NCBI RefSeq assembly: GCF_003314995.1
Contig: NZ_QNRH01000007.1
Coordinates: 62,001-126,000 of the forward strand
Length of the DNA: 64,000 nt
Origin: Pseudochrobactrum asaccharolyticum
GTDB lineage: Bacteria > Pseudomonadota > Alphaproteobacteria > Rhizobiales > Rhizobiaceae
Direction: 5' to 3'
Of this stretch, positions 6,139 through 7,105 are shown one piece after another. Each line of letters opens with the position of its first letter. Positions within the stretch are counted from its first letter, which is position 1. The notes under the pieces were generated by a model. The model was not told the origin of the DNA, ran no database searches, and saw only the letters and a program-made list of their open reading frames with translations. A program made the position numbers and the translations under genes.

Positions 6139-6187
6139 TGAACCGGCCGCCGCAGTCATTTTATCTTTATTCAGGGCACAAAAAGTA

Positions 6188-6219
6188 AACGCCCGACGCT
6201 GGGAGGAGCATCGGGCGTT
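6188..6219 (-). ncRNA. CCUCC-loop RNA hairpin 3 (CcsR/Cuckoo-like), also terminator
   Basis: Read on the minus strand, a 9-bp stem (AACGCCCGA / TCGGGCGTT) encloses a 14-base loop containing CTCCTCCC (6201-6208). It is the last of three hairpins downstream of the DUF1127 gene. The following minus-strand bases are TTACTTTTTG, so this hairpin can also act as the Rho-independent terminator of the whole unit. The CCUCCUCCC loop is the hallmark of alphaproteobacterial CcsR/Cuckoo RNAs. Confidence 0.75.
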
Positions 6220-6228
6220 ACAATGAAT

Positions 6229-6255
6229 GACCGGTTGGGAGGAGGGAGACCGGTC
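6229..6255 (-). ncRNA. CCUCC-loop RNA hairpin 2 (CcsR/Cuckoo-like)
   Basis: A 7-bp stem (GACCGGT / ACCGGTC) encloses a 13-base loop that reads CCCTCCTCCC on the minus strand (6237-6246). It is the middle unit of three tandem hairpins. Stem sequences differ between the three units while the loop motif is kept, which points to selection on the loop. Confidence 0.75.
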
Positions 6256-6260
6256 TTCGA

Positions 6261-6300
6261 TCAAACCTGAGTTGGGAGGAGGAGGGAGGCTCAGGTTTGA
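6261..6300 (-). ncRNA. CCUCC-loop RNA hairpin 1 (CcsR/Cuckoo-like)
   Basis: A perfect 11-bp stem (TCAAACCTGAG / CTCAGGTTTGA) encloses an 18-base loop. On the minus strand the loop reads CCTCCCTCCTCCTCCC, the longest anti-Shine-Dalgarno-like tract of the three. It begins 16 bp after the DUF1127 stop, so it is probably released by processing from the DUF1127 mRNA, as known for CcsR RNAs of Rhodobacter. Confidence 0.78.
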
Positions 6301-6316
6301 TATCTCGGGAATTCTA

Positions 6317-6463
6317 TTAGCGCTGAGCTGCCTTGCGAGCTACGAACGGAATTTCTGCAGGCAGGATGCCGAGATCGTTCAGTTCGCGTGTTGAGAGGCG
6401 GTTCAGTTCGTTTACTGTGCTGCGGTAACGGCGCCAGTTGTTGTAAGAGCGGATCAGGTTCAT
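6317..6463 (-). CDS. Small DUF1127 (YjiS-like) protein
   Basis: A 48-residue ORF (MNLIRSYNNWRRYRSTVNEL...), rich in Arg and Asn, with the typical DUF1127 core RYRSTVNELNRLSTRELNDLGI. Such proteins are small arginine-rich, probably RNA- or protein-binding factors. In Rhodobacter the DUF1127 protein CcaF1 is encoded directly upstream of CCUCCUCCC-motif small RNAs and affects RNA turnover. The same order is seen here: three hairpins with CCUCC loops start 16 bp after the stop. The RBS is weak (AGGTGAGAAACATG). A TATATA at 6506-6511 (minus strand) could be part of the promoter, perhaps stress-sigma dependent (inference). Confidence 0.9.
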   Translation of the reverse strand: MNLIRSYNNWRRYRSTVNELNRLSTRELNDLGILPAEIPFVARKAAQR

Positions 6464-7105
6464 GTTTCTCACCTAGAAAATTTTATGTCGTTGTTTGTTG
6501 AGTTGTATATAGCCCTATTGATCCGAAATGAGCAGAGACAAATTTGCATAGCTGCGTTGCTTATTCATGCGTGTAAAAGAAGGCCGTCAGGCATCAAATT
6601 GTCATAATCATCGTTTTAAGTAGAAAACTTGCCGAAAAAGCTCTGTATGTAGCCCTGAAGCGGTCACAATTGCCTTCAGTTTGTTGTGATATCTGCATTT
6701 TGCGCAAAATATGCGTTGAGCTATGCAATCCTTCTCAGAACTAGCCCTGTTTTAACTGCGAATTTTGCATGAAGTGCAGTTGTTCGCGATCAAACGCATG
6801 GAGCTATGCGCAAACGTTGTTTAAGCGCACAGAGGGTTTCCGTTTTTTATTGAATGATTGGAAAATGCTGGGCCAGAGCATTTCACGGTCAGGTTGGATC
6901 AACTTGACTTCGGGATAATGCGACAAGCTAAAAAATCCAGAGTGAGCACTGCGATCTAACATGAACGTAAAACGCTCAGCTAAACTGTCGGGCAGAATAC
7001 GTCACATATCTGCGCTTTATAAACAGGTACAATATATCTGTATAAATCAGCCACTCAGACTTATGATAAGTAACTGAGCGGCTGAGAAATCGTATCAGAA
7101 ATTAA
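6464..7105. other. Intergenic region: DUF1127 promoter, one dispersed repeat, no gene seen
   Basis: No convincing ORF. It holds the upstream region of the DUF1127/RNA unit, a repeat copy at 6875-6978, and three loosely similar TAGCCCT segments (about 6511, 6648, 6744) of unknown meaning. Confidence 0.5.
6875..6978. repeat. ~104-bp dispersed palindromic repeat, copy A (Bru-RS-like)
   Basis: It starts AGAGCATTTCACGGTCAGG, contains CGGGATAATGCGACAAGC and ends ACATGAACGTAAAACGCTC. It is closely similar to copy B at 24932-25039 and shares its ends and core with copy C at 14398-14499. Size and palindromic ends resemble Brucella Bru-RS elements; identity is not verified. Confidence 0.75.

Follow-up and report, generated by a model that had tools for sequence, protein, structure and literature searches.

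NfeR1 of Sinorhizobium meliloti, the founding member of the αr14 RNA family, folds into three hairpins with highly different stems, in which the anti-Shine-Dalgarno (anti-SD) motif CCUCCUCCC is unpaired. It is described with a promoter of its own, in which CTATAT serves as the -10 element, and it represses ntrB via its loops; the three motifs are functionally redundant, and a change of all three abolishes repression (PMC10746234). A second layout, in which a short DUF1127 gene lies directly upstream of CcsR-like tandem CCUCC hairpins, has been published as CIN1/cuckoo; the definition, as well as the term CIN1 locus of Reinkensmeier and Giegerich (2015), is taken here via PMC10253847. In the ccaF1-CcsR locus of Rhodobacter sphaeroides, tandem CCUCC hairpins and then a terminator come after the DUF1127 gene (PMC10253847, PMC8307010), and its promoter is of the RpoHI/RpoHII type (PMC10253847). 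The roles ascribed to DUF1127 proteins differ, with RNA binding reported for CcaF1 and protein contacts for the proteins of Agrobacterium and Salmonella (PMC12501420).

Regulators of the LysR type have been connected with both kinds of elements. In Rhizobiales, lsrB sits in operon order with trxB (PMC11975290). LsrB, which is oxidative stress-responsive in Sinorhizobium, activates NfeR1 (PMC10746234), and in Brucella three DUF1127 genes and AbcR2 are under the positive control of VtlR (PMC12595884). We found no paper in which LsrB/VtlR control, DUF1127 and αr14 come together in a single operon, in a search that reached few subscription papers, and this is weak evidence of novelty.

A DUF1127 gene followed by an αr14 RNA

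The window, i.e., the stretch of 64,000 nucleotides of Pseudochrobactrum asaccharolyticum DNA analysed as a whole, encodes on its minus strand a DUF1127 small protein of 48 aa (6317-6463, 48 codons from ATG; Pfam PF06568, E 8.1e-15), and a Shine-Dalgarno-like AGGTGAG, read from the sequence, precedes the start codon at 6468-6474. The Pfam match bears out the original prediction that a 48-residue DUF1127 gene heads the unit. The Rfam scan identified αr14 (RF02344) at 6184-6305 of the same strand, with 75.1 bits against a gathering cut-off of 58.8 bits, an E value of 1e-11 and an alignment to model positions 1-123 of 123. This match spans all three hairpins as one RNA and is the sole Rfam match above cut-off in the window; two lower-scoring candidates, ar7 (21.7 bits, cut-off 60) and SAM-SAH (17.9 bits, cut-off 40), were dismissed. 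The RNA is a member of αr14, the family of Sinorhizobium NfeR1. It had been proposed that the locus has the layout of CcsR/Cuckoo RNAs, with a covariance-model search for this family as the check. The order of gene and hairpins agrees with that layout as given in PMC10253847 and the search did find a family, but the family is αr14, of NfeR1 type, and not CcsR.

The region 6180-6315 (minus strand) folds with -52.1 kcal/mol, compared with -25.87 (sd 3.01) in 200 dinucleotide shuffles, none of which was as stable (z -8.71). Hairpin 1 (6260-6301), which starts 15 nt past the DUF1127 stop codon, has 12 bp and an 18-nt loop, CCUCCCUCCUCCUCCCAA, and hairpin 2 (6225-6258) has a 13-nt loop, CUCCCUCCUCCCA; both were recovered in the best fold and in single-sequence folds. 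Hairpin 3 (6185-6221), seen in folds, the terminator scan and covariation, has the loop CCUCCC and is followed by a U-rich tail of the ACTTTTT type, which makes it terminator-like. In the best fold, each of the three loops contains CCUCC, a motif of anti-SD type. The expected tandem array of three CCUCC-loop hairpins 3' of the DUF1127 gene is thus present at the predicted place and strand, and the suggestion that the last hairpin can terminate the unit agrees with both the tail and the intrinsic-terminator scan, which also picks hairpin 3.

The likeness to NfeR1 extends to the three hairpins, the anti-SD motif in every loop, the divergent stems, the length of approximately 120 nt and the CTATAT -10 element. 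The structure of the αr14 family, with three hairpins of variable stems and an unpaired anti-SD motif, is found here with a qualification for hairpin 3, whose motif is shorter and in part base-paired: the full CCUCCUCCC is present in hairpins 1 and 2, whereas hairpin 3 has only CUCCUCCC, of which CCUCCC is unpaired in the best fold. Unlike NfeR1, with its own promoter, the αr14 RNA of the window lies directly 3' of DUF1127. This position is shared with the CIN1 loci and cuckoo RNAs, in which, following the definition in PMC10253847, CcsR-like anti-SD hairpins come directly after a short DUF1127 gene. Since DUF1127 genes with such RNAs have already been published, the unit is a further example of an established gene-RNA pair. 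We consider it, with a probability of roughly 0.8, to be an operon of CIN1 type, in which an LsrB/VtlR-type promoter would produce a DUF1127 and αr14 transcript of about 320 nt, whose loops would repress mRNAs via their ribosome-binding sites.

Conservation in the genus and occurrence in relatives

In a plasmid collection, the closest named DNA to a 2.2-kb query is from Pseudochrobactrum (79% identity over 58% of the query), and the gene order DsbD-DsbA-DsrE-DUF1127 is the same in Pseudochrobactrum NZ_CP084393.1. MucR, encoded upstream of the unit in the window, was recovered in one of six same-genus loci of 3 kb. The whole unit is present in all six other same-genus genomes examined, and their DUF1127 proteins are identical to that of the window; the DsrE protein encoded downstream has 69-94% identity across the same-genus loci. 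Across these seven genomes, all 43 positions from CTATAT to the start codon are invariant, as are 140 of the 147 gene positions and 129 of the 138 positions after the gene, and conservation in the alignment fades beyond about -210. A DsbD scan of genome contigs, from which 80 of 589 loci were kept, contributed none of the loci used here.

Synonymous positions in the gene are also conserved. At fourfold sites of DUF1127, 24 of 27 are invariant in the seven genomes of the genus, compared with 10 of 36 in DsrE (seven genomes) and 10 of 69 in DsbA (six genomes). In the control rpsL, expected to be highly expressed, 51 of 71 fourfold sites were invariant in six genomes, and the second DUF1127 gene had 19 of 26. 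As both are conserved as well, high expression may explain the constraint on synonymous sites, and the idea of an RNA-level constraint on the DUF1127 gene was set aside.

Two αr14 matches above cut-off were identified in the organism's own genome, namely the one in the window and a second at C2:303082-303197 (locus L001), around which no DUF1127 match was present in the 3.1 kb fetched. The genome also has two DUF1127 matches, the second at C4:574838-574945, and both genes have an anti-SD array downstream. The array behind the second gene (L034 640-1002, minus strand) is a longer series of CCUCC-loop hairpins with a fold z of -8.85; it gave no Rfam αr14 match and is possibly a divergent cuckoo RNA cluster.

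The scan of 41 genomes, comprising the own genome and 40 relatives, resulted in 86 αr14 matches. They were distributed over 32 genomes, with matches above cut-off in 25. A DUF1127 match was found near αr14 in 17 of 31 loci and none in the remaining 14, with approximately 3 kb fetched per locus. The combination of DUF1127 and downstream array is retained in all seven examined genomes of the genus, as well as in several further genera. In one further locus (L027), four DUF1127 frames are packed into about 1.6 kb; two CCUCC-type motifs come after each of three of these frames, suggesting that the unit was duplicated in tandem.

Promoter region and candidate regulator

Upstream of the gene, the minus strand carries a -10-like CTATAT (6507-6512), the same as that reported for the NfeR1 promoter, and a VtlR/LsrB-like box, CAACGCAGCTATGCA (6545-6559). 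This putative binding site is identical in 13 of 15 positions to the Brucella VtlR motif, quoted as CAATGCAGCCATGCA in PMC12595884 (shuffle p 0.001 for the upstream 200 nt), and its other strand agrees with the box GCAT-N3-TG-N3-T that PMC7486931 proposes. In having a near match to the motif upstream, the unit is similar to the VtlR-regulated DUF1127 genes of Brucella (PMC12595884), and binding is predicted here. Genome-wide, the motif has 34 sites at two or fewer mismatches and 337 at three or fewer, against 49 in the reversed control, and hence resembles common coding sequence; in the whole window it shows no excess, with 6 matches versus 5.26 expected. Since the motif is this common in the genome, the 13/15 match is weak by itself.

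For 29 DUF1127 genes, the 200 nt preceding each were also tested for the motif against dinucleotide shuffles. The genes come from 18 of the loci with a DUF1127 match, each genus being represented by a single locus and the own genome also by its second unit; the near-identical same-genus loci L032, L033 and L035-L046 were left out. Five of the 15 array-linked genes reached p ≤0.003, versus none of the 14 without array; at p ≤0.05 the numbers were eight of 15 and two of 14. Both of these unlinked genes reach p 0.012, one of them, in L013, being the first gene of a tandem pair that precedes an array. For the second own-genome unit, the motif was found with four mismatches (p 0.025).

The two DUF1127 units of the own genome have a promoter pattern in common, ATGCAANNTTGTCTCT-N16-22-CTATAT (6507-6549 in the window), whose left end is overlapped by CAACGCAGCTATGCA. 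The pattern has two matches in 4.65 Mb, each of them preceding a DUF1127 gene that has an anti-SD array behind it, and a control gave 0; as it was written after viewing both promoters, the result lies in its rarity and not in the two matches. In 297 genomes of the family it occurred in seven, at 12 sites (control 0). Ten of these are in five same-genus genomes, two in each, and two are in another genus, one per genome, where they precede DUF1127 and αr14 (106.9 and 106.3 bits; loci L143 and L144).

As for the regulator, a TrxB ORF followed by a LysR ORF (L139; Pfam) was identified in the own genome, in the operon order described for trxB and lsrB, with an ar15/AbcR match close behind the pair at C4:207875. 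Judged by this neighbourhood, the trxB-linked LysR would be LsrB/VtlR, and we give its binding at the promoter in the window about even odds. It is conceivable, although we rate this somewhat below even, that the DUF1127-cuckoo units of this genus and a related one form a dedicated regulon with a shared LsrB/VtlR-type promoter, in which one LysR would jointly activate every DUF1127-αr14 operon, the αr14 that stands alone and the AbcR RNAs, as anti-SD repressors together with small proteins. Two published observations, that LsrB/VtlR acts on DUF1127 genes and AbcR and that DUF1127 genes lie together with cuckoo RNAs, may meet at one promoter here. If true, the phenotypes of DUF1127 and lsrB/vtlR mutants in Rhizobiales could partly reflect αr14-type RNAs on the same transcripts; otherwise the unit is an ordinary family member.

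The promoter also bears on how closely the locus corresponds to that of Rhodobacter. A direct equivalent of ccaF1-CcsR1-4 would be RpoH-driven, induced by oxidative and heat stress and cut by RNase E into RNAs of one hairpin each, and the shared layout of DUF1127 gene, tandem CCUCC hairpins and terminator (PMC10253847, PMC8307010) speaks for it. Nevertheless, we regard such an equivalence as unlikely. The Rhodobacter locus has four CcsR RNAs, a protein of 71 aa and an RpoHI/HII promoter, whereas the window has three hairpins matched by αr14 as one unit, a protein of 48 aa and a conserved promoter with CTATAT and a VtlR/LsrB-like box. These two elements lend no support to control of the RpoH stress type in the window; as LsrB is oxidative stress-responsive in Sinorhizobium, an oxidative link is still conceivable.

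Less probable still, and in our opinion rather improbable, is the reading that αr14 is an independent RNA transcribed from a promoter of its own within the DUF1127 gene, the latter being just a neighbour. NfeR1 has its own promoter in Sinorhizobium (PMC10746234) and αr14 without DUF1127 does exist, L001 of the own genome being one of the 14 loci of this kind. Against this, hairpin 1 follows the stop codon closely, gene and array are retained together in the genus and beyond, and the sigma-70 scan, which covers one promoter type only, placed no site inside the DUF1127 gene. The same scan gave no site using CTATAT as -10 (one match in the region versus 1.8 expected), so that the -35 element is poor.

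Some observations on the upstream regions are worth recording. In L143 (1216-1864) and L144 (1194-1863), αr14 is preceded, at a distance of a few hundred bases, by an ar15/AbcR match, with DUF1127 and the promoter pattern in between. By eye, TGCA-N5-GCAT is seen upstream of the stand-alone αr14 (L001 1671-1683). Upstream of the VtlR-like box of the window, GCATAGCT (6719-6726, minus strand) is present, as it is at the aligned place in L041-L045, which makes six of the seven aligned genomes (L046 lacks it). In L044 and L045 it is lengthened to the palindrome GCATAGCTATGC; a half-site of a second regulator is possible.

Hairpin covariation, proposed mechanism and candidate targets

For the comparison of structures, 22 αr14 sequences were chosen from the fetched loci to span many genera, and three hairpins with CCUCC-type loops were present in single folds of all 22. 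In their alignment, 94.7% of the cells of hairpin 3 are paired and 12 of its 13 pairs show both-sided change; its covariation was 0.612, versus 0.287 (sd 0.023) in shuffled and at most 0.182 in slid controls. RNAalifold on this alignment recovered only hairpin 3, with hairpins 1 and 2 absent, and the support for these two comes from the single folds and an arm-swap control. Among the 22 sequences, the 5' arm occurs in 19, 17 and 14 different versions in hairpins 1, 2 and 3, respectively. Arms from the same sequence pair at 6.41, 6.73 and 6.95 of 7 positions, versus 2.87, 3.67 and 4.71 after swapping. The contrast between conserved loops and divergent stems, noted earlier from the one sequence, is therefore real among these αr14 RNAs by both the counts of distinct arms and the arm swap.

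That the hairpins serve the DUF1127 mRNA only as 3' UTR and terminator and do not act in trans is very improbable: hairpin 3 does resemble a terminator and the targets in this organism are candidates only, but termination does not need two extra hairpins whose stems are unrelated and whose anti-SD loops are conserved, changes in the arms are compensated while the loops are unchanged, and loops of the αr14 family silence an mRNA in Sinorhizobium (PMC10746234).

According to the CIN1-type operon reading, a single promoter, probably activated by LysR-type LsrB/VtlR, would drive the unit. The transcript, its length estimated from the promoter and the terminator-like hairpin, would be a DUF1127 message with αr14 as the 3' end, and hairpin 3 would stop transcription. 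The αr14 part may be freed by RNase processing or may work inside the mRNA. Its CCUCC loops are predicted to pair with purine-rich ribosome-binding sites, and translation of the targets, probably transporter and metabolic mRNAs, would thereby be repressed. The DUF1127 protein may aid RNA maturation like CcaF1, or work by protein contacts, as in Agrobacterium.

Candidate targets were sought as GGGAGGAG-N3-10-ATG, which has 12 sites in the genome, whose ATGs may not all be true starts, and 0 in the reversed-pattern control. Inspection of the ORFs of all 12 showed that seven sites precede ORFs of 122 aa or more, which were analysed with Pfam. Two of the seven are transport binding proteins, which proves nothing but fits the published transporter preference: a family-3 solute-binding protein and a DctP-type binding protein. 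The other Pfam-scanned candidates are an oxidoreductase, MmgE/PrpD, a PhyH-like protein, a LuxR-type regulator and a pentapeptide protein.
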